This document shows positions 10,334 through 42,418 of a stretch of DNA of 64,000 bases, piece by piece. The stretch is from Actinospineispora eucalypti. GTDB taxonomy: Bacteria > Actinomycetota > Actinomycetes > Mycobacteriales > Pseudonocardiaceae. Numbering within the stretch: position 1 is the stretch's first letter; every line of letters starts with the position of its first letter. The position numbers were made by a program, and so were the translations under genes. The stretch covers positions 1,550,001 through 1,614,000 of the forward strand of contig JACHMT010000001.1 of NCBI GenBank assembly GCA_014208095.1, in the 5' to 3' direction. The notes under the pieces are model-generated. The model had not been told where the DNA came from and searched no databases. It saw only the letters and a list, made by a program, of their open reading frames with translations.

Positions 10334-10346
10334 CCAACGTTGTTAG
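10334..10346. promoter_or_regulatory. Operator-like inverted repeat CCAAC-N3-GTTAG
   Basis: CCAAC GTT GTTAG lies just upstream of the membrane-protein gene on the minus strand. It differs by one base from the perfect CTAAC-N3-GTTAG site at 14757-14769. A related but irregular sequence (AACCAAGCGTTGTT) lies near 8611, upstream of mceG. Confidence 0.5.
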
Positions 10347-10379
10347 GATTATGCCGGAAGATGCGCCTTTGAGCAGCGG

Positions 10380-10787
10380 TCAGTGGGGTGTTGCCGGGTC
10401 GAGGTCGAGGGCCATCACCTTGGCGATGTGGGGGAAGTCCCCGTCGCGGGCCAGTACGGCGGCGTTGTTCCGCAGCGCGACGGAGGCGATCATGCAGTCG
10501 ACCAGCCCCCGGGGCGTGACCCCGGCGCGGCGGCATGCCCGGTAGATCTGCATCGCCCCGGCGAAGTCGCTGGTCGCCTCGAAGCGCAGCAGCTCGAAGC
10601 GGTCCAGCAGGCGGCGCAGGTCGCGTTCCCGGTAGTTGTCCCGGGCGCCGCACAACACCTCCATCATCACCGGCTCGGTCACCGCGACCGGCCCGGCGCT
10701 GTCGATGAGCTCGGTGAGCCGCAGATCGACCGCGCTTCCGGTGGCCCGGTCGTACTCTACCCACGCCGAGGTGTCGGCGAGTATCAC
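10380..10787 (-). CDS. vapC: PIN-domain ribonuclease toxin (VapC family)
   Basis: This is a 135-aa VapC-type toxin, a metal-dependent RNase that blocks translation when freed from its antitoxin. The PIN fold is visible: LADTSAW (first acidic residue), [10 protein letters not shown] (conserved Glu), [22 protein letters not shown] (further acidic residues). The GTG start at 10787 overlaps the antitoxin stop by 4 bp, so I prefer it to longer in-frame extensions that read through the antitoxin gene. The pair sits between a membrane-protein gene and a flavoenzyme gene and looks like an insertion into the catabolic region. Cleavage target unknown. Confidence 0.88.
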
Positions 10788-10984
10788 CGGGGCGCCGGGA
10801 ACCCGTCGGCCGGCGGCTCGCCGATCGCGTTCGCGCCCCGCATGCCCAGCGCCTCTTCCCGGCTCATCGGCTCGCCGGCCAGCCGGCGCAGGGCGAGATC
10901 CACGGCCTCGGTCTTGGTGCGCAACCGGTATCGGTGCATGACCATTTCCAGCACCTCGTCGTCGATGTCGATGTTCGTCCGCAC
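10784..10984 (-). CDS. vapB: VapB-type antitoxin
   Basis: This 66-aa antitoxin is encoded directly before and overlapping the VapC gene. Residues 1-35 ([20 protein letters not shown], then [14 protein letters not shown]) match the ribbon-helix-helix form of actinobacterial VapB proteins, which binds DNA as a dimer. The C-terminal half should wrap the toxin. A perfect 15-bp palindrome starts 10 bp before the start codon and is the obvious autoregulatory operator. Confidence 0.88.
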
Positions 10985-10994
10985 ACACCAAGTT

Positions 10995-11009
10995 TACACC
11001 TCAGGTGTA
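10995..11009. promoter_or_regulatory. VapBC operator, 15-bp perfect palindrome
   Basis: TACACCT-C-AGGTGTA sits immediately upstream of vapB. VapB ribbon-helix-helix proteins usually bind such short palindromes to repress their own operon. Confidence 0.7.
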
Positions 11010-11023
11010 TGAATGGTGTGTTA

Positions 11024-13033
11024 TTACGTGGCCGATCCGGACCAGCCGTAGCGGGCCAGCGGCGGCGACCACTCGGGGGTCAGCGCGTCCACCGACTGGC
11101 GGCCCTCCACGAAGGCCACCTCCAGGCGGCGCGGGCTGTTCGCGTCGCCGATCACCCGCAGCACCGGAGCGACCCCTTTCAACGAATCGACCAGTACCCG
11201 GTCCGGCACCCCGCCGGACATCAGTACCAGGTCGTCGAAGTCGACCGTGTGCGCCCGCCACGGCGCCTCGTGCGGGGCGATCTCCGCCCGGCCCGGTGCC
11301 TCGAGGCCGCGCAGCACGCTGCGCGGGAAGAAGGTGAAGTCGCCCCGCATCAGCCGGGCCAGCAGCGGTGCGCCGACCATCTCCCAGCGCATCTCCAGGT
11401 TGGCCGCCACCAGCGCGAACCGGCTCACCTGCAGCACCCGGTGACCCTCGTCGACCAGCCGCCGGGCCACGTCCACCGACTCGTAGTGCCCGATCTCGTC
11501 CAGCAGCAGCACGGTGGGCCCCAGCTCGGCGGTGCCGCGCAGCACGTCCCAGCCGGTGTGCGCCCTGACCTCGGCCAGGCCGGGCAGTGGGAGGGCGGGG
11601 CGCAGGGTCTGGAAGCCGTCCCGGCGCGGCGTGGTTCCGGTGGCCACCAGCACCGCGTCCGGCCGCGGCCGCGCCACGTCCTCGGCCGACGCGTGGACCC
11701 CCAGCCGCACGTCCACCCCGCGCCGGGCCAGCTCGCCGGCGTAGAAGTCCGCCAGGGCGTGGAGCTCGGGGCGCGGGGCCAGCCTCAGCTGCCCGCCAAG
11801 CTGGTCGGCGGCTTCCAGCAGGGTGACCCGGTGCCCGGCGATGGCGGCCGCCCGGGCCGCTTCCATGCCGGCCGGCCCGCCGCCGACCACCACCACGCGC
11901 AGCGACCTCGGCGCGACCGGGATGAGCGCGTCGCCGTGGGTCAGCTCGCGGCCGGCGGCGGGGTTCACCGCGCACATCGCGCGGGCCCGGGTGTTCAGCC
12001 CGCCGGCGCAGCTCTGCAGGCAGGCGATGCACGGCCGCACCTCGCCGGTGCGCCCGTCCGCCGACTTCACCACCAGTTCCGGCTCGGCCAGCGTGGCCCG
12101 CACCATGGACACCAGGTCGGCCGCCCCGGACGCGACGACCCGGTCGGCCTGCTCGAGCGTGTGGAACCGGCCGGCCACGATGGTGGGCAGCGCGGTCTGC
12201 CGGGTGATCTTCTCGCTGGACGGCAGCTGGTAGCCCGGCGGCTCGTGGCCGCCGCCCATCAACAGGTCACGCCCGTAGTGGGAGCCCAGCGAGACGTCCA
12301 GGAAGTCGATCAGGCCGGAGCGCTCCAGCCGCCCGGTCAGCTCGACCAGGTCTTCCGTGGTCGTTTGGTCGGCCGGGCCGTCCGGGGAGACCCGCACGCC
12401 CACCGGGTAGTCCGGGCCCACGGCGGCGCGGATCTTGCGCAGCACCTCGAACAGGAACCGGGACCGGTTCTCGGCCGAGCCGCCGTACCGGTCGGTGCGC
12501 AGGTTGGTGGCCGGGGAGAGGAACGAGGAGAACAGGTAGCCGTGGCCGGCGTGCAGCTCGATCCCGTCGATGCCGCCCTCCATGGCGCGCACCGAGGCGG
12601 CGACGAAACACCCGGTCAGCTCGTCGATCATCGCCTGGGTCATCGGCACCGGCAGCATGCCCAGCCCGGGGTCGGGCACGTGCGAGGCCGCCCACGGCGC
12701 GGAGCTGTCCCAGGCCAGCTGGGTCGGGCCGCCGTGCCAGACCTGCTGGAACAGGTGCATGCCGTGCGCGTGGGACGCCTCGGTGAGCCGGCGCAGCCCG
12801 GGCAGGCAGCGGTCGCTGGACAGGTCGATCATGCCCGGCGAGCTCCAGTGGATCTGCCCGATGTCGGCGAACGCCAGCGCCACGCCGCCCTTGGCCCGGG
12901 CCACCAGGAACTCGACCAGCTCGTCGCTGACCTGCTGGCCGGCGGCCAACCCGGTGCCCTGCGACGTGCGGACCACCCGGTTGCGCAGCTCCACCCGGCC
13001 GATCCGGAACGGGCTCAGCACGTGCTCGTACAC
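11024..13033 (-). CDS. Old-yellow-enzyme/2,4-dienoyl-CoA reductase-like flavoprotein
   Basis: This 669-aa oxidoreductase has the layout of FadH and trimethylamine dehydrogenase: an FMN-binding TIM barrel (residues 1 to about 330, with HAGHGYLFSSFLSP and NLRTDRYGGSAENRSRF), a 4Fe-4S motif (Cys335, 338, 342 and 354, CIACLQSC...C) and C-terminal FAD/NAD(P) Rossmann domains (VVVGGGPAGMEAARAA near 380). Electrons would pass from NAD(P)H through FAD and Fe-S to FMN to reduce an enoyl or dienoyl substrate. The start is GTG. Next to CoA and P450 genes it may reduce a double bond in a terpenoid- or steroid-like acid. The substrate is inferred, not seen. Confidence 0.85.
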   Translation of the reverse strand: MYEHVLSPFRIGRVELRNRVVRTSQGTGLAAGQQVSDELVEFLVARAKGGVALAFADIGQIHWSSPGMIDLSSDRCLPGLRRLTEASHAHGMHLFQQVWHGGPTQLAWDSSAPWAASHVPDPGLGMLPVPMTQAMIDELTGCFVAASVRAMEGGIDGIELHAGHGYLFSSFLSPATNLRTDRYGGSAENRSRFLFEVLRKIRAAVGPDYPVGVRVSPDGPADQTTTEDLVELTGRLERSGLIDFLDVSLGSHYGRDLLMGGGHEPPGYQLPSSEKITRQTALPTIVAGRFHTLEQADRVVASGAADLVSMVRATLAEPELVVKSADGRTGEVRPCIACLQSCAGGLNTRARAMCAVNPAAGRELTHGDALIPVAPRSLRVVVVGGGPAGMEAARAAAIAGHRVTLLEAADQLGGQLRLAPRPELHALADFYAGELARRGVDVRLGVHASAEDVARPRPDAVLVATGTTPRRDGFQTLRPALPLPGLAEVRAHTGWDVLRGTAELGPTVLLLDEIGHYESVDVARRLVDEGHRVLQVSRFALVAANLEMRWEMVGAPLLARLMRGDFTFFPRSVLRGLEAPGRAEIAPHEAPWRAHTVDFDDLVLMSGGVPDRVLVDSLKGVAPVLRVIGDANSPRRLEVAFVEGRQSVDALTPEWSPPLARYGWSGSAT

Positions 13034-13049
13034 GCCGACCCCCGGTGGC

Positions 13050-13340: not shown

Positions 13341-13348
13341 TCCCAACC

Positions 13349-13963
13349 TCACTTCACCAGGTAGAGCAGCGGGAACAGCACGATCCACAGCAGGTCCACC
13401 ATGTGCCAGAAGCAGGCCCCGCCCTCCACGAAGGCGAACTGCTTGGTGGTCAGCTGGGTTGTTTCTGCCGCCCGCGACTTCACGATCAGGTAGACCAGCA
13501 CCGCCATGCCGATGATCAGGTGGAAGAAGTGCAGGCCGGTGAGCACGTAGAAGTACATGAAGAAGCTGTTGGTGTTGGGTGTGAGGCCCTTGCCCAGCTT
13601 CTCGCTGTACTCCAGGAACTTCATCAGGGAGAACCCGAGGCCGCACACCAGCGCCCCGCTGAACATCCACGGCGCGACGCCGGCGACCCGCTTCCGGATG
13701 GCCCGGATGCCGACCACCACGAACAGCGAGCTGGTCAGCAGCAACAGCGTGTTCACCACGCCGTAGATCTGCCGCAGCTGCTGTTGCGACTCGTTGAACA
13801 GCTCCGGTTCCAGCCCCCGGTAGTACAGGTAGGTACAGAAGAAGACGGCGAACACCATCATGTCGCCGAAGATGAAGACCCAGGTGCCTTCCTCGCCGGG
13901 CAGGTGTTTTGCCGGTTTGCCGGATGCTTCGGGCCGCTGGACGTTCTTCGAAAGCGTGGTCAC
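13349..13963 (-). CDS. Heme-copper oxidase subunit III family protein (NorE-like)
   Basis: This 204-aa subunit III protein has five membrane helices (EEGTWVFIFGDMMVFAVFFCTYLYYR, VVNTLLLLTSSLFVVVGI, MFSGALVCGLGFSLMKFLEY, LTGLHFFHLIIGMAVLVYLIV, FVEGGACFWHMVDLLWIVLFPLLYL). The HFFHLIIG and WHMVDLLW motifs are characteristic. It lies just upstream of the subunit IV gene and downstream of an unknown membrane protein, probably as one transcript. No catalytic subunit is nearby. Similar NorE-like orphans occur in actinobacterial catabolic clusters; their role is not well defined. Confidence 0.85.
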   Translation of the reverse strand: MTTLSKNVQRPEASGKPAKHLPGEEGTWVFIFGDMMVFAVFFCTYLYYRGLEPELFNESQQQLRQIYGVVNTLLLLTSSLFVVVGIRAIRKRVAGVAPWMFSGALVCGLGFSLMKFLEYSEKLGKGLTPNTNSFFMYFYVLTGLHFFHLIIGMAVLVYLIVKSRAAETTQLTTKQFAFVEGGACFWHMVDLLWIVLFPLLYLVK

Positions 13964-13993
13964 GGGTCTCCCAGTTCCACTCGGCGGTAGCGG

Positions 13994-14722
13994 TCAGGCC
14001 GTCTGTGGTTCCTGATGGGGGACGCTAACCGCCGCTTCGGCCTCCTGCTCGCCGATCGCGCGGTGCAGCACGTACCCCATCACCGGGAACCACGTACCAA
14101 AGATAGTGAGTGCTAACCAGAAAGCAATAACCCCGTTCCAGGCGAACGGTCCGGTGTGGAAGCACATGACCAGCGCGCCGACCAGGAAACCGATGGCCAG
14201 CCACACGTTGTAGTACCCGACCCAGCGGGCCAGCACCGGGCGTTCCCGGTGGTCGCGCAGGATGGCCAGGCCGATGGCGAGCGACTGGATCGCGGCCGGC
14301 GCGGCGAACCCGACGAACGGCAGCCAGGCCAGGTCGTTGAGGGCCTGGGTGAGCTCCGGGTCGCGTTCCGGCCGGTACGCGGCCGCCGCCATGACGAACA
14401 TGGGCAGGCCGAGCAGCAGCGGGGTGGTCCACCCGGCGCCGAGCTGGGTGAAGGCCAGCGGGGACCACCGGCCCTCGATGCGGCGCACCTGCAGCAGGAT
14501 GGCCACCGCGTACGGGAAACCGAACCCGGTGCCCAGCAGGGAGATCACCAGGCCGATCCGGATGCTGGTCACGTTGTCGGCGTAGAACCGGGCCACCTCG
14601 GTCGCCGACCAGCTGGGTGCCGGCGGCGGCACCATCCCGCCGATCCACCAGAAACCGATGCAGAACACCAGGATCATCAGTGTTCCGCTCCAGGCGCACA
14701 ACCGCTGTGTTGTCGCGTTCAT
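13994..14722 (-). CDS. Six-helix membrane protein of unknown function
   Basis: This 242-aa protein has about six to seven membrane helices (LMILVFCIGFWWIGGM, IGLVISLLGTGFGFPYAVAILL, TTPLLLGLPMFVMAAAAY, WLAIGFLVGALVMCF, GVIAFWLALTIFGTWFPVMGYVL) and a short soluble tail. I cannot name a family. A Trp-Ile-Gly-Gly motif after helix one and a charged ARFYADN loop look like conserved features. It is the first gene after a perfect CTAAC-N3-GTTAG inverted repeat at 14757-14769, and probably the first gene of a unit with the oxidase subunits III and IV. Confidence 0.65.
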   Translation of the reverse strand: MNATTQRLCAWSGTLMILVFCIGFWWIGGMVPPPAPSWSATEVARFYADNVTSIRIGLVISLLGTGFGFPYAVAILLQVRRIEGRWSPLAFTQLGAGWTTPLLLGLPMFVMAAAAYRPERDPELTQALNDLAWLPFVGFAAPAAIQSLAIGLAILRDHRERPVLARWVGYYNVWLAIGFLVGALVMCFHTGPFAWNGVIAFWLALTIFGTWFPVMGYVLHRAIGEQEAEAAVSVPHQEPQTA

Positions 14723-14756
14723 CGCCAGACCTTCGTTCGTGGTTGGTAGCCGCTGG

Positions 14757-14769
14757 CTAACGGTGTTAG
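14757..14769. promoter_or_regulatory. Perfect operator-like inverted repeat CTAAC-N3-GTTAG
   Basis: CTAAC GGT GTTAG is a perfect inverted repeat 34 bp upstream of the membrane-protein gene start at 14722. It is the best copy of a motif found before several catabolic genes in this window. The KstR motif as I know it has a 2-nt gap between AAC and GTT; this one has 3, so a different regulator is likely. Confidence 0.6.
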
Positions 14770-14802
14770 ATTCTCAGGATTTGACGTCCGGGTCAATTCG
14801 GC

Positions 14803-16143
14803 TCACCCCGCCGTGGCCGGTGCGTGACGCAGCGTGTGGGCCAGATCGGCGGCCGCCCGCTCGCCGGCCGCGATCGAGGCGTTGACGCTGGTCTGCGCGT
14901 GGTAGTCGCCGGCCAGCTGGATGCGCGCGGCGGGGTCGGCGTGCGCGTGGAAGTCCACCAGGCCGGCGTAGGTGCCCACCTCGCTGGCCACCAGGGCCGG
15001 GTTCCACCGGGCCACGTGGGACGCGCGCACCCGGTCCGCCCAGCCGGGCAGCAGCCGGTTGATCGTCGCCCGGGTGGCCGCGACCACCTCTTCGTCCGGG
15101 TCGCCGTAGTGGCGGGTGCTCCAGTCGGTCATCCAGTAGGCGGTCAGGATGCCGGTGCCGGCCGGGGCGCGCCCGGGGGCCAGGTTGTGCCCGAGCCCGA
15201 CCACGCACAGGTCCGGCTCCAGGTCGCGCGGGATGAGCACCATCGACGCGGTTTCGTCCGGTGCCGGTTCGACGCCCAGGGAGACCACGATGGACGTCGA
15301 GTAGCGCAGGTTCTCCAGGTACTTGCGGCGCGCCGGGTCCAGGTCCGGGTACATCTCGACGGCCGCGCCCGCCGGGACCGCGAGCACCACCCCGTCCACC
15401 GTGCTCTCGTGTGGCTGGTCGTTCTCCGTCCAGCGCACCTGGACCCGTTCGTCGGCCTGGGTCCGCACCTCTTCGACCTGGGCTTCCAGCCGGATGTCCA
15501 GCTCGGCGGCCGCGCGGTCCAGGAAGAAGCCCAGGCCGGCGGGGTGGGTGACGATGTGCCCGGCCACCAGCAGGCTGCGGCAGGCGGCGAACAGGTCCAC
15601 CACCGAGCTCTGCTCCGGCTCGGTGAGCAGCAGCGCGCGGGTGATCGGCTCGAGCAGGTTCTCCCGGACCGAGTCCGGGTAGTTGGCCACGCAGTAGTCG
15701 TGCATGGTCCGGGTGTCCAGGTGCGCGGCGCTGCCCAGGTCGGTGTAGTTGATCGAGCGGTACGCCTTCGCCAGGTCCCGGCCGAGGCGCCACAGCGAGG
15801 CCTTGTCCCGGGCCGGGATGTGCCGGGCGGACAGGAAGGTGAGCGGGTTGCGCCGGGCGATCCGGTGCACCCGGCCGTCCCGCAGCGCGCCGATCACCGC
15901 GCCCCGGTGCTCGATCTCGCCGCGCGCGCCGACCGCGTCGATCAGCCGCAGCATGGCCGCGTAGGTGGTGGGCAGGGCCCCGGCGGAGACGTCGAACCGG
16001 AAGCCGTCGCGCGCCACGGTGCGCACCCGCCCGCCGACCTGGTTGCCCTTTTCGAGTATCCGCACGGTGACGCCCGCCCTTCGTAGCCAGAACGCGGCGG
16101 ACACGCCGGCCGCCCCGGCGCCGACCACGATCACCTCGGGCAT
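14803..16143 (-). CDS. FAD-dependent amine-oxidase/protoporphyrinogen-oxidase-like protein
   Basis: This 446-aa flavoprotein begins directly with the FAD-binding Rossmann motif (VIVVGAGAAGVSAAFWLRRAG, then EKGNQVGGRVRT), the signature of the amine oxidase/PPO/phytoene desaturase superfamily. A C-terminal flavin contact (IQLAGDYHAQTSVNASIAAGERAA) is also present. Its length suits the superfamily. It is divergent from a paralogue starting at 16207, with about 60 bp between them, and a third paralogue lies at 36 kb. The reaction is unknown; desaturation or oxidation of an isoprenoid-type substrate would fit the context. A PPO role is unlikely because no heme genes are nearby. Confidence 0.85.
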   Translation of the reverse strand: MPEVIVVGAGAAGVSAAFWLRRAGVTVRILEKGNQVGGRVRTVARDGFRFDVSAGALPTTYAAMLRLIDAVGARGEIEHRGAVIGALRDGRVHRIARRNPLTFLSARHIPARDKASLWRLGRDLAKAYRSINYTDLGSAAHLDTRTMHDYCVANYPDSVRENLLEPITRALLLTEPEQSSVVDLFAACRSLLVAGHIVTHPAGLGFFLDRAAAELDIRLEAQVEEVRTQADERVQVRWTENDQPHESTVDGVVLAVPAGAAVEMYPDLDPARRKYLENLRYSTSIVVSLGVEPAPDETASMVLIPRDLEPDLCVVGLGHNLAPGRAPAGTGILTAYWMTDWSTRHYGDPDEEVVAATRATINRLLPGWADRVRASHVARWNPALVASEVGTYAGLVDFHAHADPAARIQLAGDYHAQTSVNASIAAGERAAADLAHTLRHAPATAG

Positions 16144-16206
16144 GGCACTCCCTCCGGAGCCGAGGGCTCACTAGTGCGAAAAACCATACAGCGATAGGAT
16201 ACTGGT

Positions 16207-17577
16207 ATGTCCCCGGGTCAGCGAGTGGTGGTTGTCGGGGCCGGTATCACCGGCCTGAGCTGCGCGTACCGGCTGCGGGATCGCGGCTTCGAGGTGCTCG
16301 TACTGGAGGCCTCGGACGCGGTCGGCGGAAAGATGAGCAGCGTCCGCCGAGACGGTTACGTGGTGAACCGGGCGGCCAACATCCTGCCCTCCTCCTACGC
16401 CGCCGTGCGCGGGCTGGCTCAGGACGTGGGGCTCGGCGGGCGGATCGGCGCCATGCCGGTGGTGCTCGGCGTGCCCCGGGACGGGCGGATGCACCGGCTG
16501 CGGGCCAGCGGCCCGGGGATGCTGGTGGACGGCCTGCGCACGTCCCTGCTGTCGGTGCGCGGGAAGCTGCTGCTGCGCCGGATGCTGGTGGACGCGCTGC
16601 GCATGAAGGGCTCGCTCAGCTACGCCAACCTGGGCGCGGCGGCCCGGTTCGACACGGAGACCGTGGCCGAGTACTGCGAGCGCCGGCTCAGCCCGGAGGT
16701 GCGCGACTACCTGGTGGAACCGATCCTGCGCGCGCTGTTCACGTGCAACGCGGACACGGTGTCCATCGTGGACTTCTTCTTCGCGGCGGTGAACTTCGTC
16801 GGCTCGGGGATGATGCGCTACCCGGGCGGCATCGACTTCCTGGTTCGCGAACTGGCTTCGCGGCTGGACGTGCGGCTCTCGGCGCGGGTGACCTCGGTGA
16901 CCGACGAGCCGGACGGCGTGCGGGTGAGCTGGACCGGCCCGGACGGCGTCTCGCGGGTCGAGTCGGCGGACGCCTGCGTGCTCGCGGTGTCCGGCGCGGT
17001 GGTGCCCGCGCTCTACCCGGGGCTGGACGCTTCGCGGCGCGAAATCTTGACCTCGAAGCTGCGCTACTGCGTCACCTACGCCGGCCACTTCGCGCTGCGC
17101 CGGCGGCCCTCGGAGCCGTCGCTGGTGGTGCCGGTGCCGCGCGCCGAGGACGAGAACCTGTGCGTGGTGGTGTTCAGCCACAACGCCGGCGAGGCGTGCG
17201 TGCCGTCCCCTTCGGCCGGGCTGCTCTCCACCTACTGGCTGCACGAGTGGAGCTCGTCGCGGCGTTTGCGGACCGACGACGAGGTGATCGCCGAGATGCT
17301 GCCGGCGATGGCGAAGGTGGTGCCGAGCATCGAGGAGGACCTGGTGTTCGCCCGCCTGGACCGGTGGGACCCGGCCGTGGTGCGCAGCTACCCGGGTTGG
17401 TACACCCACGTGGCGCGGCTGGGTGAGCTGGCCGACGCCGGCGGGCGGATACAGCTGGCCGGCGACTACCTGTCCGCCTCGTCCACCAACGCCTGCGCGG
17501 TGGCCGGCGAGGAGGCCGCTGGGCGCGTGGCTCGGGTGCTGGCCGGCGGTTCCGTCGGGTCGGCGGTGGCCCGGTGA
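16207..17577 (+). CDS. FAD-dependent amine-oxidase-like protein, paralogue of the divergent neighbour
   Basis: This 456-aa flavoprotein has the same layout as the gene it diverges from: an N-terminal FAD motif (VVVVGAGITGLSCAYRLRDRG, EASDAVGGKMSS) and a C-terminal GDYLSASSTNACAVAGEEAAGRVAR segment. Shared internal patterns (FDTETVAEYC against LDTRTMHDYC; LVEPILRAL against LLEPITRAL) show a duplication. The FAD glycine motif is intact. The stop overlaps the next gene's GTG start. Transcription may depend on an imperfect inverted repeat (CCATAC-N3-GATAGG, 16184-16198) shared with the divergent gene. Confidence 0.85.
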   Translation: MSPGQRVVVVGAGITGLSCAYRLRDRGFEVLVLEASDAVGGKMSSVRRDGYVVNRAANILPSSYAAVRGLAQDVGLGGRIGAMPVVLGVPRDGRMHRLRASGPGMLVDGLRTSLLSVRGKLLLRRMLVDALRMKGSLSYANLGAAARFDTETVAEYCERRLSPEVRDYLVEPILRALFTCNADTVSIVDFFFAAVNFVGSGMMRYPGGIDFLVRELASRLDVRLSARVTSVTDEPDGVRVSWTGPDGVSRVESADACVLAVSGAVVPALYPGLDASRREILTSKLRYCVTYAGHFALRRRPSEPSLVVPVPRAEDENLCVVVFSHNAGEACVPSPSAGLLSTYWLHEWSSSRRLRTDDEVIAEMLPAMAKVVPSIEEDLVFARLDRWDPAVVRSYPGWYTHVARLGELADAGGRIQLAGDYLSASSTNACAVAGEEAAGRVARVLAGGSVGSAVAR

Positions 17578-18264: not shown

Positions 18265-18396
18265 CGTACCTCAAGTCCCGACTCGCTGTACCTCAAGTCC
18301 CGACTCGCTGTACCCCAAACCCCGACTCGCCGTACCTCAAGCCCCGACTCGCCGTACCCAGATCCCCGACTCGCTGTACCTAATTTCCCGACTCGC
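18265..18396 (-). repeat. Array of six 22-bp repeats (reverse block)
   Basis: Six adjacent 22-bp units start at 18265, 18287, 18309, 18331, 18353 and 18375. Each ends in CCCGACTCGC and is the reverse complement of the forward block at 18058. The last unit encodes the final codons and stop of the convergent enoyl-CoA hydratase-like gene. The 141 bp between the two blocks holds no gene I can support. Confidence 0.9.
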
Positions 18397-19156
18397 CGTG
18401 GAGGTAGCCGGGGCGGCGGTGTTCGGTGAAGTCGGAACGGGCGTCGCGGGCCTCGCCGGACATGTTCAGTTCCAGGGTGTAGCTCAGCTCCTGGCGGTAG
18501 GCGGTGCGGATGTCCCGGCCGATGCTGCCGGCCATCGCGGACTTGAGGCCGCGGATCACCGCCGTGCGTTTGCCGGCCACCGTGTGGGCCAGAGCCAGCG
18601 CCGCCGAGGGCAGCTCCTCCGGGTCGACCAGGCGTAATACGGAGCCGAAGGCGGCCAGTTCCTCGGCCGGCACCGGCTCGCAGGTGAACAGCGCGGCGCG
18701 CAGGCGTTTCTCCGGCATCAGGCCGATCGCCTGGATGATGCCGCTGGTGGCGCCGTTGTCGGCCTCGGCCAGCACGAACGGGGTGCCGGGTGAGGCGAGC
18801 AGGATGTCGCACACGCCGGCCACCAGCACACCCAGGCCGATGCAGTAGCCGTGGATGGCGCCGATCACCGGCACCGGGCATTCCGCGATCGCCAGGGTGA
18901 GGTTCTGCGAGCCGTGAATCTGGCCGAGGATGCCCTCATACCCGGGCAGCCGCTGCACCTCCTTCACGTCCCCGCCGCCGCAGAAGCCGCGCCCCTCGCC
19001 GCGCAGCACCACCGCGCGCACGCCGGAGTCCGGCGACCCGTACCCGCGCAGCGCGGAGATCAGCGCGTCGATGGAGGCCAGGTCGAAGGCGTTGACCGGC
19101 GGGTTGTCCACCACCAGCTCGGCCACGCCGTGCTCGTCGAGCTTCTCGTGGATCAC
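18380..19156 (-). CDS. Enoyl-CoA hydratase/isomerase-fold protein
   Basis: This 258-aa crotonase-fold protein starts at GTG 19156, overlapping the CoA-synthetase stop as GTGA. Oxyanion-hole segments are visible: RGEGRGFCGGGDVKEVQ and IGAIHGYCIGLGVLVAGVCDILLAS. One acidic residue is present in PFVLAEADNGATSG, but the glutamate usually found in the GGGxELALACD helix appears as a hydrophobic residue here. A plain hydratase reaction is therefore uncertain; isomerase, hydrolase or lyase activity is possible. The last codons (LHGESGN-stop) are made of repeat DNA, so the C-terminus has been rewritten by the array. It forms an operon with the synthetase and the SCP2 protein. Confidence 0.85.
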   Translation of the reverse strand: MIHEKLDEHGVAELVVDNPPVNAFDLASIDALISALRGYGSPDSGVRAVVLRGEGRGFCGGGDVKEVQRLPGYEGILGQIHGSQNLTLAIAECPVPVIGAIHGYCIGLGVLVAGVCDILLASPGTPFVLAEADNGATSGIIQAIGLMPEKRLRAALFTCEPVPAEELAAFGSVLRLVDPEELPSAALALAHTVAGKRTAVIRGLKSAMAGSIGRDIRTAYRQELSYTLELNMSGEARDARSDFTEHRRPGYLHGESGN

Positions 19157-20694: not shown

Positions 20695-21111
20695 TCAGCC
20701 GATCTTGTCTTCCATGCCGCGCTCCTTGAGGAAGGTGCGGTACATCCCGAACGCCGGCTGCATCGCCGGCAGCAGCTTGAGCAGCTTGGGTATCTGGCCC
20801 TCCACCCGCACCTTCTTGCGGGCCAGCGCCATCGGCAGGTTCAGCTGGCCCAGCCAGAACTTGTGGCCGTCGTCGGCCGACATGAACATGTTCACGTCGA
20901 CTTCCTTGGCCTTGGCGGCGTCACCGCTGCGCACCGCCGGCGGGTCCACCGTGGTGGCCAGGCTGACGAAGCAGTCCGGGTCGTGGTAGTTGGCGCGGAA
21001 CGAGGTGGCGGCGGCGACGAACTTGGGACGCAGCTCCGGGTCGGAAGTGATGTGCTCCAGGAACTCGCTGAGCACCTGTTCGGCCTCCTGCTGGGAGCTG
21101 AATACCGGCAC
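20695..21111 (-). CDS. SCP2 sterol-binding-domain protein
   Basis: This 138-aa protein resembles the SCP2 family, a small single-domain fold with a hydrophobic tunnel that binds sterols, lipids or acyl-CoA. Residues 60-130 show the pattern (DVNMFMSADDGHKFWLGQLN, LARKKVRVEGQIPKLLKLLP). It starts with GTG and is directly followed by the acyl-CoA synthetase gene, so it may hand a hydrophobic acid to the ligase. An operator-like half-conserved CCAAAT-N3-GTTAGG lies 25 bp upstream. The family call is good; the ligand is inference. Confidence 0.75.
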   Translation of the reverse strand: MPVFSSQQEAEQVLSEFLEHITSDPELRPKFVAAATSFRANYHDPDCFVSLATTVDPPAVRSGDAAKAKEVDVNMFMSADDGHKFWLGQLNLPMALARKKVRVEGQIPKLLKLLPAMQPAFGMYRTFLKERGMEDKIG

Positions 21112-21136
21112 GCCAGTCCTCCTTGACCCGGTTCAC

Positions 21137-21149
21137 CAAATGGCGTTAG
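21137..21149. promoter_or_regulatory. Operator-like site CAAAT-N3-GTTAG upstream of the SCP2 operon
   Basis: CAAAT GGC GTTAG has one perfect GTTAG half and one degenerate half. It lies between the minus-strand SCP2 start (21111) and the plus-strand ferredoxin gene, in the position of a minus-strand promoter. Confidence 0.4.
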
Positions 21150-21205
21150 GTTAGCGCGGCGCCGGCGGCGTGTGCAACGGCCGGCGACAGAAAGGGGCGG
21201 GCATC

Positions 21206-21397
21206 GTGAGCCACGTGAGTATCGACGGTGCCAAGTGTCAGGGACACGGGCGCTGCGCGCTGATCGCACCCGAGGTGTTCGACGTCGACGACCTCGGCAT
21301 GGGTCTGGTGCTGGTGGACGAGGTGCCGCCGGCGGCCGAGGCCGACGTGGACGAGGCCGTGCTGACCTGTCCGGAGAACGCCATCCATGTCCGGTGA
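21206..21397 (+). CDS. Small 3Fe-4S-type ferredoxin
   Basis: This 63-aa ferredoxin has the pattern CQGHGRCALIAP...CPENAI typical of actinobacterial P450 redox partners, with the first-cluster spacing CxxxxxC and the distal Cys-Pro. The GTG start has a GAAAGGGG ribosome site. It lies 36 bp before a P450 start and probably carries electrons to that enzyme and perhaps to the second P450 at 28 kb. No ferredoxin reductase is encoded in the window, so a reductase elsewhere must feed it. Confidence 0.88.
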   Translation: MSHVSIDGAKCQGHGRCALIAPEVFDVDDLGMGLVLVDEVPPAAEADVDEAVLTCPENAIHVR

Positions 21398-21407
21398 TTG
21401 TCTTTAC

Positions 21408-21420
21408 CTAACGTCGTTGG
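21408..21420. promoter_or_regulatory. Operator-like site CTAAC-N3-GTTGG before the P450 gene
   Basis: CTAAC GTC GTTGG has one mismatch to the CTAAC-N3-GTTAG consensus. It sits 14-26 bp before the P450 ATG, where it could block a promoter between the ferredoxin and P450 genes. Confidence 0.5.
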
Positions 21421-21433
21421 GTATTGTGGCGGC

Positions 21434-22714: not shown

Positions 22715-22718
22715 CCCG

Positions 22719-23888
22719 GTGCCCGGAGCGCTGGACGGCCTGCGGGTCCTGGAGGTCGGCCACATCATCGGCGGCCCGTTCTGCGGCCACCTGTTCGCCG
22801 ACCACGGCGCCGAGGTGATCAAGGTCGAACCCCCCGAGGTCGGCGACCCGATGCGGGTGTGGGGTGGGTTGTACCGGGGCGTCGGGCTGTACTGGTCGAT
22901 CATCGGCCGGGGCAAGAAGTCGGTCACCCTGGACCTGCGGTCGGCCGCCGGGCAGGAGGCGTTCCGAACGCTGGCCGCCACGGCCGACGTCGTGGTGGAG
23001 AACTTCCGGCCGGGCACCATGGAGCGCTGGAACCTGGGTCCTTCCGAGCTGGCGTCGGTGAACCCCCGGCTGATCATGGTGCGGATCACCGGGTTCGGCC
23101 AGGACGGCCCGTACGCGGACCGGGCCGGTTACGGCTCGGTGGCCGAGGCGATGAGCGGGTTCCGGCACCTTTCCGGCGAGCCGGGCCGCCCGCCGGTGCG
23201 GGTGGGGATCTCCATCGGCGACGCGCTGGCCGGCACGCAGGGGCTGGTCGGGGCGTTGATGGCGTTGTGGCGGCGGGACCGTCCCGGCGGCTCCGGGGTG
23301 GGCCAGGTGGTCGACGTGGCGCTGTACGAGGCGATGTGGATGTACCTGGAGTCCACCGTCGCCGAGCTGGTCAAGCTGGACCGGGAACGCGGCCCGACCG
23401 GGGCGCTGCTGCCCGGCATCGCGCCGTCCAGCGTCTACCCGACCCGGGACGGCGAGTGGCTGATCATCGGCGCCAACCAGGACTCGGTGTTCCGCCGGCT
23501 GGCTTCGGCGATGGACCGCGACGACTGGTTGGCCGACGACTCGCCGTACGGCACGCACGTCGGCCGGGGCGCCGCGCAGACCGAGCTGGACGAGGCGATC
23601 GCCGCCTGGACCAGTGATCATTCGGCCGACGAGCTGCTCGCGCTGCTCGCCGACGCGGGCGTGCCCTCCGGCCGGATCTACACCGCGCGGGACATCCTGG
23701 GCGACCCGCACTACAAGGCGCGCGAAATGATCGTCGACGTGCCCGAGCCCGGCCTGGGCGGCGAGACCGTCCCCATGCCCGGCGTCGTCCCCAAACTCTC
23801 CGCCACCCCCGGCGCCCTAACCCGCGGCGCCCCCCTCCTGGGCGAACACAACCCCCACTACCTCCCCACCCCCACCCCCACCACTTGA
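22719..23888 (+). CDS. Family III CoA-transferase (CaiB/BaiF-like)
   Basis: This 389-aa family III CoA-transferase moves CoA between acids without a free anhydride. The N-terminal GLRVLEVGHIIGGPFCGHLFADHGAEVIKVEPPEVGDPMR and LDLRSAAGQEAFRTLAATADVVVENFRPGTMERW are classic. The usual catalytic Asp lies in the central part, near ALYEAMWMY or just before it. The GTG start follows the P450 stop by 4 bp, so the two are co-transcribed. A separate CaiB-like enzyme (AMACR type) lies at 26.6 kb. The first unit of a 22-bp repeat array overlaps its stop codon. Confidence 0.9.
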   Translation: MPGALDGLRVLEVGHIIGGPFCGHLFADHGAEVIKVEPPEVGDPMRVWGGLYRGVGLYWSIIGRGKKSVTLDLRSAAGQEAFRTLAATADVVVENFRPGTMERWNLGPSELASVNPRLIMVRITGFGQDGPYADRAGYGSVAEAMSGFRHLSGEPGRPPVRVGISIGDALAGTQGLVGALMALWRRDRPGGSGVGQVVDVALYEAMWMYLESTVAELVKLDRERGPTGALLPGIAPSSVYPTRDGEWLIIGANQDSVFRRLASAMDRDDWLADDSPYGTHVGRGAAQTELDEAIAAWTSDHSADELLALLADAGVPSGRIYTARDILGDPHYKAREMIVDVPEPGLGGETVPMPGVVPKLSATPGALTRGAPLLGEHNPHYLPTPTPTT

Positions 23889-23996: not shown

Positions 23997-24009
23997 TGTC
24001 CGGTCCGTC

Positions 24010-24198: not shown

Positions 24199-24225
24199 AC
24201 ATATCCTCAACGCGGAGGAGGCCCG

Positions 24226-25413
24226 GTGACCGAGCTGGTTACGCCGAAGGTCGAAGAGCCGAAGGTGCTGCTGTACACCCGGCTGCGGAAATCGCCGTAC
24301 TTCTGGAAGTCGCGTGAACACGGCGTGGCGTCCTACAGCGTGTACAACCACACGTACCACCCGCGCCACTACGGCGACCCGATCGGCGAGTACTGGTCGC
24401 TGCTGAACGGCGTCACGCTGTGGGACGTCGGGGTCGAGCGGCAGGTGGAGATCTCCGGGCCGGACGCGTTCGACTTCACCAACCTGCTGGTGCCGCGCGA
24501 CCTGACCAAGTGCGCGGTGGGCCAGTGCAAGTACGTGTTCATCACCGCGCCGGACGGCGGGATCATCAACGACCCGGTGCTGCTGCGGGTGGAGCGGAAC
24601 CGGTTCTGGCTGTCCCTGGCGGACAGCGACGTGCTGCTCTGGGCGCTCGGCGTGGCGCACGCCGGCGGCTGGAACGTCACGGTCAAGGAGATCGACGTGT
24701 CGCCGGTGCAGATCCAGGGGCCGAAGGCCAAGGACCTGATGGTGGACCTGCTCGGGCCGACCATTCTGGACATCGGCTACTACCACCTGCGGCACTACCG
24801 GCTGGACGGGCTGGACGTCGTGGTCAGCCGCACCGGCTACACCTCGGAGATCGGCTACGAGATCTACCTGTACGAGGCCACCAAGAACGCCGGCCAGCTG
24901 TGGGACGTGGTCTGGCGGGTCGGCCAGCCGCACGGCCTGCGGCCCATCGGGCCCTCGCACATCCGGCGCATCGAGGGCGGCATGCTCGCCTACGGCTGCG
25001 ACATCACCCTGGACACCAACCCCCTGGAAGTCGGCTACGACTACCGGTGGATGGTCGACCTCGAGCAGGAGGCCGACTTCATCGGCAAACAGGCGCTCAT
25101 CGAGGCCAAGGCGCGCGGCATCACCCGCCAGCTGGTCGGTGTGCGCATCGACGGCCCGCCGCTCGGTTCCTACGTGGACGGCACGATGATCGAGCCGTTC
25201 GAGGTGCGCACCGGCGACGGGACGCTGGTCGGCTCGGTCACCAGCGCCTGCCACTCGCCCCGGCTGGAGTACAACATCGGCCTGGCGATGGTGCCGATCG
25301 GGCTGAGTGAGCTGGGCACCGAGCTGGTCGTCGCCACGCCCACCGGTAGCCAGCGCGCGGTGGTGGTGCCGAAGCCGTTCGTGGACCCGGGCAAGGAGAT
25401 TCCGAAGGGGTGA
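24226..25413 (+). CDS. GcvT-family tetrahydrofolate-dependent demethylase/aminomethyltransferase
   Basis: This 395-aa protein has the GcvT fold throughout (SLLNGVTLWDVGVERQVEISGPDAFDFTNLL, then PVQIQGPKAKDLM, RTGYTSEIGYEIYLYEA, FIGKQALIEAKARG and a C-terminal barrel VGSVTSACHSPRLEYNIGLAMV). GcvT proteins move a methyl or methylene group to tetrahydrofolate. The other glycine-cleavage genes are absent, and the next gene is MetF-like. This combination is known for aryl O-demethylases such as LigM and for DmdA-like enzymes, so an O-, N- or S-demethylase is more likely than glycine cleavage. GTG start with GGAGGAGG just upstream; a palindromic operator precedes it. Confidence 0.82.
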   Translation: MTELVTPKVEEPKVLLYTRLRKSPYFWKSREHGVASYSVYNHTYHPRHYGDPIGEYWSLLNGVTLWDVGVERQVEISGPDAFDFTNLLVPRDLTKCAVGQCKYVFITAPDGGIINDPVLLRVERNRFWLSLADSDVLLWALGVAHAGGWNVTVKEIDVSPVQIQGPKAKDLMVDLLGPTILDIGYYHLRHYRLDGLDVVVSRTGYTSEIGYEIYLYEATKNAGQLWDVVWRVGQPHGLRPIGPSHIRRIEGGMLAYGCDITLDTNPLEVGYDYRWMVDLEQEADFIGKQALIEAKARGITRQLVGVRIDGPPLGSYVDGTMIEPFEVRTGDGTLVGSVTSACHSPRLEYNIGLAMVPIGLSELGTELVVATPTGSQRAVVVPKPFVDPGKEIPKG

Positions 25414-26216
25414 GCGTCGCGGAACTGCTCGCCGCCCCCCAACTCGAGCTGATGCCGACGCGTGACGCGGCCGACCGGTTCGAGGGGTTGCCGGAGGGGG
25501 CGACGGTCACCGTCACCTGCGCGCCCCGGCGTGGCCTCGCCCCCACCCTGGATCTGGTGGAACGGCTGGCCGCGCGCGGTTTCCGCGCGGTGCCGCACCT
25601 GGCCGCGCGGCAGGTCCGGGATGCCGCCGAGCTGGCCGAGACACTGGGCCGGCTGGACCGCGCCGGCGTGCGGGAGGCGTTCGTGGTGGCCGGGGATGCC
25701 GTCGTACCGGCCGGCGAGTTCCCGGACGGGCCGGCGCTGCTGCGCGCGATGGACCGGCTGGGCCACTCGCTGACCCGGATCGGCGTGCCCGGCTATCCCG
25801 AGGGCCACCCGTCGGTGCCGGACGATGCGCTCTGGGCGGCGTTGCGGGAGAAACAGCGGTTCGCGCACTACGTGGTGACCCAGATGTGCTTCGACGCGGC
25901 CGCGCTGCGGGGTTTTGTGGCGGAAGCGCGGCGGCGGGGGATCGCGCTGCCGGTGCTGGTCGGGCTGCCGGGGGCGGTGGACGCGGGGACGTTGCTGCGC
26001 CTGGGCGTGCGGATCGGAGTGGGGGACTCGCTGCGGTTCGCCCTGGGGCACCGGGGCGTGGCCGGCACGTTGCTGCGTCCCGGTAGGTACCGCCCGGACA
26101 CCCTGCTCGGCGAGCTGGACTCCGGCGAGTTCGCCGGGTTGCACCTGTTCACCTTCAACCAGGTAGAACCCACGCTGCGCTGGCTGGCCGAGGCCCGCCG
26201 CCGCGCCGCCGCCTGA
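25410..26216 (+). CDS. Methylenetetrahydrofolate reductase-like protein
   Basis: This 268-aa protein is shorter than typical MetF but has the TIM-barrel features of that family: VTVTCAPRRGLAPTLDLVERLAARGFRAVPHLAARQVRD, EAFVVAGDAVVPAGEF, IGVPGYPEGHPSV and YVVTQMCFDAAALRGFVAEARRRG followed by LPVLVGLPG. It is co-translated with the GcvT-like gene (GTGA overlap). Together they could take a methyl group to tetrahydrofolate and oxidise it to methylene-tetrahydrofolate, regenerating the acceptor. The oxidative direction is an inference from the pairing; FAD- and NADH-dependence is family knowledge. Confidence 0.82.
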   Translation: MSVAELLAAPQLELMPTRDAADRFEGLPEGATVTVTCAPRRGLAPTLDLVERLAARGFRAVPHLAARQVRDAAELAETLGRLDRAGVREAFVVAGDAVVPAGEFPDGPALLRAMDRLGHSLTRIGVPGYPEGHPSVPDDALWAALREKQRFAHYVVTQMCFDAAALRGFVAEARRRGIALPVLVGLPGAVDAGTLLRLGVRIGVGDSLRFALGHRGVAGTLLRPGRYRPDTLLGELDSGEFAGLHLFTFNQVEPTLRWLAEARRRAAA

Positions 26217-26231
26217 GTCCCGGCCCGCCGT

Positions 26232-26625
26232 ATTGCGGTTCCGGGCGGTTCCGGTTCAAAGAGCGCTTGGACGGCGCGGCTGGGCGGTCTGCCGCCGCCT
26301 GGGAGCGGCCTCTCGCCTCTGGCCCGGGTGCCGGTTCCCTCTTCACTACGCACGGTGACGACAGGGAGGGGTGTCGGGGGAGGTACGGCGCCGCATTTCG
26401 CCGAGTGGTGGCTCAGTCGCCGCAAAATCATGATCAAGAGCGACTGGGCCAGCACTCGATGAAGGCGACCGCCCGGGTCGCCGGCGACCCGGGCACGCTC
26501 CGTGATCGAGCCGCGAGAACCGGCACCGGGCGAAGGGTGACGGGCCGCGCCGAAGCGGCGGCAGACCGCCCAGCCGCGCCGTCCAAGCGCTCTTTGAACC
26601 GGCACCGCCGGAACCGAAACGCTCG
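26232..26625. repeat. Nested-palindrome intergenic element, copy 2
   Basis: Two perfect 48-bp arms (26251-26298 and 26555-26602) are reverse complements, extended outward by imperfect pairing. Inside lies a second inverted repeat with arms at 26401-26419 and 26439-26457. The element fills the gap between the MetF-like gene and the convergent AMACR gene; no coding gene is supported here. Similar outer and inner arms occur at copy 1 and copy 3. Confidence 0.85.
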
Positions 26626-26644
26626 CGTAGGCCGCGCCGAACAC

Positions 26645-27793
26645 TCAGCCGGGAAGAACGATGGTGCCGGTGGCAGCCAGTGCGCCGATCTCCTCCGGGG
26701 CAAAGCCGGCTTCGGTGAGGACCGCGCGGGTGTGCTCGCCGCGCTCCCGGGGCGCCGGGCGCGACTCCGGTGGGGCGTCGGACAGGCGGGGGGCGGGGGC
26801 GGCGTGCAGCTGGCCGTCCTCGCGGCGGACGGTGCCCCGGGAACGCAGGTGTGGGTCGTCGGGCAGCTCGTCCAGCTCCAGCAGGGGGGCGCCGCAGCCG
26901 TCCAGCTCGGCGAACACGGCGGACCAGTGCGCCCGGGGCTTGCCCGCGAACACTTCGGCCACCCGGGCGCGCAGGGCCGGCCAGCGAGCCGGGTCCAGTT
27001 GGCTGGCCGGGTCGGCGGGTACCTCCTCCTCCAGGCCCAGCCCGGCCAGGAACGCCGCGTAGAACTTGGGCTCGATGGCGCCGACCGTGAAGTGCGCGCC
27101 GTCCGAGCACTCGTACACCCCGTAGAACGGCGCCGCACCGGACAGCAGGTGACCGGCCCGGCCGGCCCAGATGCCCGCGTTCCGCTCGGCCAGTTGCGGG
27201 GTGTTGAGCAGCGCGGCGCCGTCCACGATGGCCGAGTCGATCACCTGGCCGCGCCCGGTGGCCATCCGCTGGTACAGCGCCATGACGATGCCCAGTGTGG
27301 CGAACAGCGACCCGCCGGCGATGTCGCCGAGCAGCGCCAGCGGCGGCACCGGGGCCGGGGCGTCCGGGCCGCCCAGCACGCCCAGCACCCCGGAGACGCC
27401 GAGGTAGTTGATGTCGTGGCCGGCCCGGTTGGCGTACGGGCCGGTCTGCCCCCAGCCGGTCAGCCGGGTGTAGATCAGCCGGGGGTTGCGCCGGCACAGC
27501 ACGTCCGGCCCGAGGCCGCGCCGTTCCATGGTGCCCGGGCGGTTGCTCTCCAGGAGGACGTCGGCCCGGTCGGCCAGCCGGGCGATCACCTCGGCGCCGC
27601 CGTCAGCGCGCAGGTCCACGATCGCCGAGCGCTTGCCCCGGGCGAAGAACTTGGCCGGGTCGAACGGCGGCGTGTCCGGGCGCTCCACCGAGACCACGTC
27701 GGCGCCGAAGTCGGCGAGCAGCATCGAGCAGAACGGCCCGGGGCCGAGCGCGCTCAGGTCCAGCACCCGGACGCCGTGCAGCGGTGAGCTCAT
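26645..27793 (-). CDS. Alpha-methylacyl-CoA racemase/family III CoA-transferase
   Basis: This 382-aa CaiB/BaiF-superfamily member opens with [33 protein letters not shown] and continues with [40 protein letters not shown] and [30 protein letters not shown]. The [18 protein letters not shown] pattern is characteristic of AMACR and bacterial Mcr, which epimerise 2-methylacyl-CoA. That suits branched side chains such as those of sterols or isoprenoids. I chose the ATG at 27793, which overlaps the P450 stop (ATGA); longer open frame upstream reads through the P450 in another frame. It forms an operon with the P450. Confidence 0.88.
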
Positions 27794-28983
27794 ACGAGAT
27801 CGAACGCCAGGTCCAGCGCCTCCGGGCCGTTGGCGATGCCGGGCGCCCAGTGCACGTCGGCCGGGCCGCCGGAGGCGAAGCGCAGGTTGGTGATCCGCTT
27901 GAGCAGCTCGTCGAACGCGATGGTGATCTGGATGCGGGCCAGGTGCGCGCCCAGGCAGCGGTGTACCCCGAGGCCGAAGCCGGCGTGCCCGCTGCGCACG
28001 GTGTCGAACCGCAGCTCGGCGGCGTCCGGGAACTTGGTGTCGTCCCGGTTGGCCGAGTCGAACCGGACCAGCAGCTGCTCGCCCTGCTTGATCCGCACCC
28101 CGCCCAGCTCCACGTCCCGGGTGGCGGTGCGGCCGAGGCAGCCCACCGGCGACTCCAGGCGGATGAACTCGTCCATGTCCTGGCGTATCCACTTCGGGTC
28201 GCGCACCCGGTGCTCCAGCTCCGGGCGCCGGGCCAGGTGGTAGGCGATCGCGCCGATGGCGCCCCGGGTGGTGTCCAGGCCGCCGAGGAAGAGCACGGTG
28301 ACCACGCCCAGCCGCTCGTCCTCGGTGAGCGGCCGGCCGCCGAGCACGGTGCCGGTGGTGATCGCGTTCAGCACGTCGTCCCGGTCGATCGGGTTGTCCT
28401 CGCGCTCCACGATGTACTCGGCGGCCAATGAGGCGAGGTTGAAGTAGGACTCGTCGTCGCTGTTCAGGGCCACCGCGGTGACGATCTCGATGGCCCGCTG
28501 CATCTTGGTCGAGTCGGTCTCGTTGAACACGATCTGGGCCAGCACGCTGCCCACGAACGGCGCGGCGAACTCACTGATCAGCTCCACCCGGCCGCGGCTC
28601 ACCCAGTTGTCGATGAGCGCGGTGGCGCTCTTGCGCATCTGCGGCTCGAACTTCATCAGGAAGGTGCGGGAGAACAGCGGGTTGAGCAGCTTGCGCAGGT
28701 CCAGCTGGTAGGGCGGGTCGGCGTCCAGCGGGTTCAGCGTGACCGGGGACGGCCGGGGGGCCACTCCGGCCGAGGAGAAGGTCGCCGGGTCCTCCAGCAC
28801 CCGGCGCACGTCCTCATACCGGGTGATGACGTACTGCCCGCCGCCGTCCGCGTCGGTGTGCGCCACCGGGCAGGCCTGGCGGGCGTGCTCGAACACCCCC
28901 CACTTCACCCGCTCGTGCTCCGGGCTGAACATGTCGTAGCTGCTCAGGAGGGTGCCCGGGTCGTTCTCGGGTTGTTCAGCCAC
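27790..28983 (-). CDS. Cytochrome P450
   Basis: This 397-aa P450 shows an I-helix LGGLDTTRG (residues 233-241), an ExxR motif EFIR (272-275) and the heme loop FGLGVHRCLGAHLAR (Cys344). The stop overlaps the AMACR start, so oxidation and epimerisation of one substrate are probably linked. The ferredoxin at 21.2 kb is the nearest redox partner. GTTAG-rich operator-like sequence lies directly upstream, in the region shared with the divergent swivel-protein gene. It is only distantly similar to the P450 at 21.4 kb, so it should act on a different position or substrate. Confidence 0.9.
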   Translation of the reverse strand: MAEQPENDPGTLLSSYDMFSPEHERVKWGVFEHARQACPVAHTDADGGGQYVITRYEDVRRVLEDPATFSSAGVAPRPSPVTLNPLDADPPYQLDLRKLLNPLFSRTFLMKFEPQMRKSATALIDNWVSRGRVELISEFAAPFVGSVLAQIVFNETDSTKMQRAIEIVTAVALNSDDESYFNLASLAAEYIVEREDNPIDRDDVLNAITTGTVLGGRPLTEDERLGVVTVLFLGGLDTTRGAIGAIAYHLARRPELEHRVRDPKWIRQDMDEFIRLESPVGCLGRTATRDVELGGVRIKQGEQLLVRFDSANRDDTKFPDAAELRFDTVRSGHAGFGLGVHRCLGAHLARIQITIAFDELLKRITNLRFASGGPADVHWAPGIANGPEALDLAFDLV

Positions 28984-29014
28984 CGGCCACTCTCCTCAGC
29001 TTGGGGGACATAAG

Positions 29015-29073
29015 CCATCACCGTTAGGTTAGAATCCTACCAACCTTGTCGACGAGTTACCCGACGATGTTAG
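29015..29073. promoter_or_regulatory. Divergent promoter region with several GTTAG operator-like sites
   Basis: The 99-bp gap between the P450 (minus) and swivel-protein (plus) genes has GTTAG twice in tandem (29023-29032), with a degenerate left half CCATC at 29015-29019. A second site, CCGAC-GAT-GTTAG, lies at 29061-29073. These resemble the CTAAC-N3-GTTAG motif and could regulate both directions. Confidence 0.5.
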
Positions 29074-42414: not shown

Positions 42415-42418
42415 CTAG

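Follow-up and report, generated by a model that had tools for sequence, protein, structure and literature searches.

A 64,000-nucleotide stretch of the Actinospineispora eucalypti genome (GenBank assembly GCA_014208095.1, contig JACHMT010000001.1, positions 1,550,001 to 1,614,000; hereafter the window) carries seven copies of an extended palindrome beside genes for cytochromes P450, coenzyme A (CoA) enzymes, flavoenzymes and a phosphoenolpyruvate (PEP)-type swivel-domain protein. Very probably, this palindrome serves as operator for a repressor of the TetR family that carries a TetR_C_1 effector domain and whose dimer would block RNA polymerase until an effector releases it. The best candidates are two paralogues encoded outside the window, here called TetR-A and TetR-B. 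Positions in the window are counted from its first letter, and positions elsewhere are given with the contig.

The extended palindrome and its statistics

The motif CTAAC-N3-GTTAG is the core of a longer palindrome of 17-21 bp, roughly ACCWAAYNNYGTTAGGT, which was first derived by eye from a comparison of the better sites. The core is perfect at 14757-14769, has one mismatch at 10334 and 21408, and has two mismatches at 29061, 21137 and 29015. All six places between 10334 and 29073 that were named in the original prediction exist. However, a seventh (16183-16199) had been missed, the site at 29061 is real but not near-perfect, and the supposedly weak site at 21137 is the strongest in the window, at 30.0 bits.

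Sites were scored with a symmetrised matrix trained on nine own-genome sites outside the window; these came from a pattern shaped partly by eye on window sites, and the test is thus not fully blind. The matrix finds seven window sites at 17.9-30.0 bits, between 10330 and 29077 and every one outside called genes. The next-best score in the window is 10.5 bits, and the background, 400 kb of the own genome, peaks at 14.0 bits. This upholds the earlier claim of a shared operator in intergenic promoter positions. A spacing of 3 gives seven window matches of at least 16 bits, while spacings of 1, 2, 4 and 5 give 1, 0, 0 and 0, respectively. Among 200 permuted matrices, the mean number of window matches was 0.235 and the maximum 6, with none reaching 7.

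The extended pattern with at most one mismatch occurs at nine distinct sites in the own genome and nowhere in the reversed control. Among 61 congeners, seven have any such site, with a maximum of two each, which is about the level of their own reversed controls. A sequence profile of 20 own sites, run against the whole genome, returned 18 distinct sites at E<=10; six of these lie in the window, and all belong to the training set. As 150 of the 202 first-look candidates were scored, and two training sites as well as a 19.0-bit site (C5:451177) were missed, this run is no census.

The bare core is by itself weak evidence, and the case rests on the longer operator. With at most two mismatches, the 13-mer has 10 matches in the window against 5.44 +/- 2.24 in shuffles, and 4 of 100 shuffles also reach 10. 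Across the whole genome (9.6 Mb), it counts against the original prediction: at most one mismatch gives 18 sites versus 46 for a mirror control that differs from the core in dinucleotide make-up, and the bare motif is not the more frequent of the two, contrary to what had been anticipated. Of these 18 sites, 15 were examined at their loci with a simple open reading frame (ORF) caller, which flagged 3 as lying inside an ORF, and some sites adjoin genes without obvious kinship, such as a sigma factor.

The word TANNNT occurs at the same columns of the right half in 15 of the 20 own sites, versus 1 of 20 in reverse. Therefore, the operator and the -10 element probably overlap, as is described for the TetR repressor KstR. 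The orientation of the operator relative to the nearest gene is mixed, and we claim no fixed promoter geometry.

Two TetR paralogues and the cross-genome association

TetR-A (C1:1777115-1777837) and TetR-B (C5:1070486-1071118) are 68-69% identical, and both have TetR_N and TetR_C_1 domains above the Pfam cut-offs. Each lies less than 2 kb from sites of 21-30 bits, as expected of a TetR gene elsewhere in the genome that shares the motif. Judging by spacing and strand, the TetR-A gene appears to stand third in an operon comprising an SDR, an enoyl-CoA hydratase-like gene and the regulator; a 26.7-bit site precedes the SDR gene. TetR-B directly precedes a site and a P450 gene, and a further 17.7-bit site lies ~220 nt before it, inside a called ORF.

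The link between these regulators and the operator extends to other genomes. A first set comprised nine loci of TetR-A/B homologues, found by protein searches in the same genus, the same family and two other families. Six of the nine have a site of at least 16 bits, whereas 20 control stretches, each of 20 kb and taken from four of the tested genomes, have none (p 1.8e-4). For a second set of eight loci in previously unexamined genomes, the matrix and the threshold were fixed beforehand. All eight carry one to four sites of at least 16 bits (20 sites in total, all outside called genes), whereas none occurs in the 12 control stretches drawn from four of the genomes in this set (p 8e-6).

The homologues also share a segment containing LYHH, which we take to be the recognition helix of these proteins. 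Its pattern V/I-N-G/S-A/T-S/T-LYHH is found in TetR-A, TetR-B and 15 of the 17 homologues. Where an Asn-type helix is present (VNG, ING or VNS before [AT][ST]LYHH), 14 of 15 homologue loci have the operator. Proteins with another residue at the Asn position (VTG in L198, VKG in L200 and VKS in a third own-genome copy) have none. This agreement, noted post hoc, is what a match between operator and protein would give.

Combined, the operator is present in 14 of the 17 homologue loci that the searches yielded, all of which were examined, and in none of 32 control stretches, although loci of one genus are related rather than independent, the p-values overstate independence, and the control stretches come from only 8 of the 16 tested genomes. 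Several further points weigh against our reading. Three of the 17 loci lack a site of at least 16 bits (L197, with a best score of 15.6, L198 and L200). Genomes G239 and G208 had earlier pattern matches, and their neighbouring stretches L202-L204 were excluded from the counts. The site directly before TetR-A scores only 12.1 bits, and the third own copy (C1:3147420) is without a site of at least 16 bits. The 19.0-bit site at C5:451177 adjoins a sigma-factor gene, and some other sites lie by genes of unknown role. Furthermore, the operator is not confined to the A/B clade. Sites that match it, such as ACCTAACACTGTTCGGT, also occur in three families at a sister TetR clade, whose genes adjoin ones of the acyl-CoA dehydrogenase type, though the sister-clade loci were picked by motif and their link to it is not independent. 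The sister-clade regulators (L165-L170, L173, L175) are divergent from a gene of 364-383 amino acids, which is an acyl-CoA dehydrogenase in L170, the one tested.

These sister-clade sites would also fit a different regulator, which we regard as unlikely. Two other TetR proteins of the own genome come into question: one on C2 beside an AveC-like gene, with a 24.7-bit site between the two, and a C4 TetR_C_1 protein (L116:7402-8016) with an 18.3-bit site ~160 nt away. The C2 gene was our first candidate owing to its intergenic site; like the motif, it is confined to the own genome among the congeners, none of the 61 having a match at E<=1e-20. It was rejected, since its orthologue loci in three other genomes (L125, L129 and L130) have no site at two mismatches or fewer (best 3, in L129) and share a different palindrome with it. 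The C4 protein has a different helix (IRTPSLYHHF), and its site lies closer to the ferredoxin-like gene that flanks it opposite the regulator. Across genomes, the operator is linked to the A/B clade.

The different palindrome is TTGTGAG...CTCAC-like and was seen by eye in the TetR/AveC locus L114 (C2:1125001-1144000) as well as in the three orthologue loci. It is probably the operator of the C2 TetR.

The regular placement of TANNNT in the 15 own sites could also suggest a promoter element read by an alternative sigma factor, or the box of an activator, rather than a repressor operator. We consider this improbable: the symmetry spans 17-21 bp, changes in the two halves are matched in other genomes (L176 10879, L192 12710), and the sites are associated with a TetR gene. 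A chance likeness among the AT-rich promoter words of a GC-rich genome, to which the mild enrichment of the bare 13-mer in the window and its genome-wide rarity relative to the mirror control would correspond, is contradicted by the background, spacing, permutation and cross-genome tests, above all by the second set of loci, and has almost no probability left.

The regulator was said not to be encoded nearby. At least two TetR genes do lie in the window (38481-39122 and 49806-50429), and they were rejected: no matrix match near them exceeds 8.2 bits, and TetR_N matched in both while TetR_C_1 did not (E<=1e-3; E<=1e-5). The window yielded no regulator that fits, although not every regulator there was listed.

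We propose that TetR-A, TetR-B or both would bind as a dimer to the palindrome of 17-21 bp. The right half of the palindrome mostly falls on the -10-like TANNNT, and the bound dimer would thus block RNA polymerase at all seven sites of the window and at about a dozen others. Repression would most likely fall on the genes for P450s, CoA enzymes, flavoenzymes and PEP-swivel proteins. The repressor would be released by a small effector, for which an acyl-CoA or another pathway intermediate is the probable candidate. Genes scattered over the chromosome thus appear to be switched together.

Probable target genes and the predicted pathway

In the genome stretches examined, 14 further sites of at least 18 bits lie outside the window, including the nine training sites (table). 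Their neighbours include P450, acyl-CoA dehydrogenase, aldehyde dehydrogenase and luciferase-like monooxygenase genes, in line with the expectation of sites before other catabolic genes. Next door to the regulon, directly before it, is an mce-type lipid-uptake operon (MlaE, MlaD/Mce4_CUP1, MMPL; C1:1544216-1549951, L109, and window 2-6451). This operon (C1:1544216 onward) was rejected as a target: its best site has 12.9 bits and it has no strong operator, which goes against the predicted enrichment upstream of mce genes.

Sites, genes of the window and further genome sites (window positions unless a contig is given; the matrix covers 21 nt)
Feature	Coordinates	Strand	Score	Remarks
Operator AACCAACGTTGTTAGGA	10332..10348	+	22.8 bits (matrix from 10330)	upstream of - strand membrane-protein gene
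Operator GGCTAACGGTGTTAGAT, perfect core	14755..14771	+	17.9 bits (matrix from 14753)	upstream of - strand unit 14722/14677 to 11024
Operator ACCATACAGCGATAGGA	16183..16199	+	20.7 bits (matrix from 16181)	between two divergent FAD-enzyme genes
Operator ACCAAATGGCGTTAGGT, strongest in window	21135..21151	+	30.0 bits (matrix from 21133)	between SCP2-like/CoA-ligase unit (-) and ferredoxin (+)
Operator ACCTAACGTCGTTGGGT	21406..21422	+	22.2 bits (matrix from 21404)	21-mer ends 10 nt before P450 start
Operator AGCCATCACCGTTAGGT	29013..29029	+	19.5 bits (matrix from 29011)	21-mer 28 nt from start of - strand P450
Operator ACCCGACGATGTTAGAT	29059..29075	+	18.2 bits (matrix from 29057)	21-mer ends 6 nt before PEP-swivel gene
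Membrane protein (label of the original prediction)	9512..10330	-		no Pfam family; start may be 10276
OYE/mycofactocin-FadH-like oxidoreductase	11024..13033	-		last gene of unit behind site 14755
COX3-like protein	13349..13963	-		in unit behind site 14755
Protein without Pfam family at E<=1e-3	13994..14722	-		start may be 14677
FAD amine-oxidase/HpnE-like flavoenzyme	14803..16143	-
FAD amine-oxidase-like flavoenzyme	16207..17577	+		start may be 16225; PNPOx-like 17574-18050 comes next
Enoyl-CoA hydratase-like	18380..19156	-		62.6% identity to one in G208 TetR cluster
Acyl-CoA ligase (AMP-binding)	19153..20694	-		49% identity to one in G208 TetR cluster
SCP2-like, marginal	20695..21111	-	19.5 bits vs cut-off 21.3	E 0.0013
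Single-cluster ferredoxin	21206..21397	+
Cytochrome P450	21434..22714	+
CoA-transferase family III	22719..23888	+
GcvT-like plus MTHFR-like genes	24226..26216	+		membership uncertain (337-nt gap)
CoA-transferase family III	26645..27793	-		downstream of P450; 53% identity to one in G208 TetR cluster
Cytochrome P450	27790..28983	-
PEP-utilising mobile (swivel) domain protein	29083..30798	+		no Pfam match to ATP-binding domain
DUF7064/DUF7065, Rv3169-like	30800..31753	+
MFS metabolite/H+ symporter-like	31851..33140	+	below NCBIfam cut-off	membership uncertain
Further site	C1:103329			aldehyde dehydrogenase
Further site	C1:882846			paralogue of the window's swivel protein
Further site	C1:969058			gene with MetE-like translation (by eye)
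Further site	C1:1116911			gene without Pfam match
Further sites	C1:1770107-1779405			luciferase-like monooxygenase, alpha/beta hydrolases, HMGL-like enzyme, SDR
Further site	C1:1904479			acyl-CoA dehydrogenases, flavin reductase
Further site	C2:1134772			AveC-like gene
Further site	C4:899175			ferredoxin-like gene (by eye)
Further sites	C4:962043, C5:1070461			P450s

The unit behind the site at 14755 consists of the protein without a Pfam family, the COX3-like protein, a small ORF and the OYE/mycofactocin-FadH-like enzyme; the first of these shares 34.6-35.9% identity with neighbours of the C2-type TetR in mycobacteria. The site at 21135 has the SCP2-like, acyl-CoA ligase and enoyl-CoA hydratase genes on its left and the ferredoxin gene on its right. 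That at 21406 precedes the P450 and CoA-transferase genes, perhaps also the GcvT-like and MTHFR-like ones. The pair at 29013 and 29059 stands before the minus-strand P450 and CoA-transferase genes on one side and, on the other, the PEP-swivel gene with the DUF7064/7065 gene and perhaps the MFS transporter gene. The SCP2 label given earlier to one gene holds only marginally, below its cut-off.

The gene content of the regulon is partly shared with another genome. In G208, from another family, a 17-kb contig (L192) carries a TetR homologue together with homologues of genes from both the window (an enoyl-CoA hydratase, an acyl-CoA ligase and a CoA-transferase; identities in the table) and the cluster at C1:1.77 Mb (a luciferase-like protein, 57%; a hydrolase, 64%; an SDR, 58%). 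As this contig joins homologues of both clusters, it supports one pathway that would be split over the own genome.

Swivel proteins are the most recurrent operator partner among the loci examined. The operator precedes a swivel protein of 505-539 amino acids in six of the eight second-set loci (three of the six by N-terminal likeness only), and in the three of these loci that were listed gene by gene, the swivel protein shares 38-40% identity with the own paralogues at C1:882846 and C2:738597, the latter with a 16.4-bit site. The swivel protein of the window is more distant, with 29.7% identity to the G199 protein. A homologue combining PPDK_N and swivel domains (56-59%) occurs in two of the five second-set loci listed gene by gene, and such homologues are also found in G199 (59%) and G073 (71%). 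The PPDK_N protein of the own genome is encoded at C1:1780148-1781632.

Together, the P450s with their ferredoxin, flavoenzymes, CoA ligase and transferases, hydratase and HMG-lyase-like enzyme, with the recurrent PEP-type swivel/dikinase proteins, have the look of a pathway that breaks down an apolar, CoA-activated compound. The single lipid/terpenoid/steroid pathway proposed earlier is plausible. It is possible, if rather doubtful, that the genes form an undescribed TetR-controlled catabolic pathway with its regulator, beginning with or depending on a two-protein PEP-synthase-like phosphotransferase (a swivel-only and a PPDK_N/swivel protein), with P450s and CoA chemistry acting on an apolar compound; its genes would occupy at least 10 places in the own genome and be compact in others. 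The operator, the two regulator genes and the list of genes scattered over the 9.6-Mb genome are a testable prediction. They group uncharacterised enzymes, in particular the PEP-synthase-type swivel-domain proteins, into one likely pathway and offer a route to its substrate by induction.

Other features of the window were also recorded. A VapB/PIN toxin-antitoxin pair (10380-10984) separates the first operator from the OYE unit. A plus-strand ORF at 26267-27787 was rejected as a gene, having no Pfam family; the real gene there is the CoA-transferase on the minus strand. Two identical 1402-bp copies lie at 41018-42419 and 43555-44956, with a DDE transposase gene in the first. The own genome has 19 matches to the window's PEP-swivel protein, versus 0-11 in the 40 relatives searched.

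Comparison with known systems

A full-text literature search, with subscription papers and supplements outside its scope, recognised no paper with this operator, which is no proof of absence. Among TetR_C_1 (PF02909) proteins, the nearest solved sequences are ActR and the tetracycline repressors, and these are distant (TetR-B versus ActR, E 8.3e-17 over residues 10-153). ActR and the tetracycline repressors control antibiotic or tetracycline export, not catabolism.

Another known system is the "Motif X"/Rv0767c-type TetR, with a palindrome before phytosterol- or steroid-induced genes that have no KstR sites (PMC6593523); the letters of that motif are in a figure only, and the likeness is one of description rather than of compared motifs. 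BkaR resembles the predicted system in being a TetR protein that represses catabolic genes of the CoA type and has a TAAC/GTTA palindrome (PMC3920632). However, its operator, GTTA(N)T(N4)A(N)TAAC, has half-sites opposite to the consensus of the 20 own sites, with GTTA on the left, and a different gene set; it has no exact match in the window.

KstR is a TetR repressor of sterol catabolism with the operator TnnAACnnGTTnnA (PMC1995591). It and the predicted system are both of the TetR family, with an AAC/GTT palindrome overlapping the -10 region and many dispersed lipid-catabolism operons. In contrast, KstR has a spacing of 2 and TAGAAC half-sites, while the spacing here is 3 and the half-site ACCWAAC. 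The KstR operator TnnAACnnGTTnnA has no exact match in the window, and a spacing-2 matrix finds no window match of at least 16 bits, versus seven with spacing 3, so that the difference in spacing noted in the original prediction stands. The palindrome is neither the operator of KstR nor that of BkaR; the predicted system is KstR-like in working yet fails the KstR operator test.

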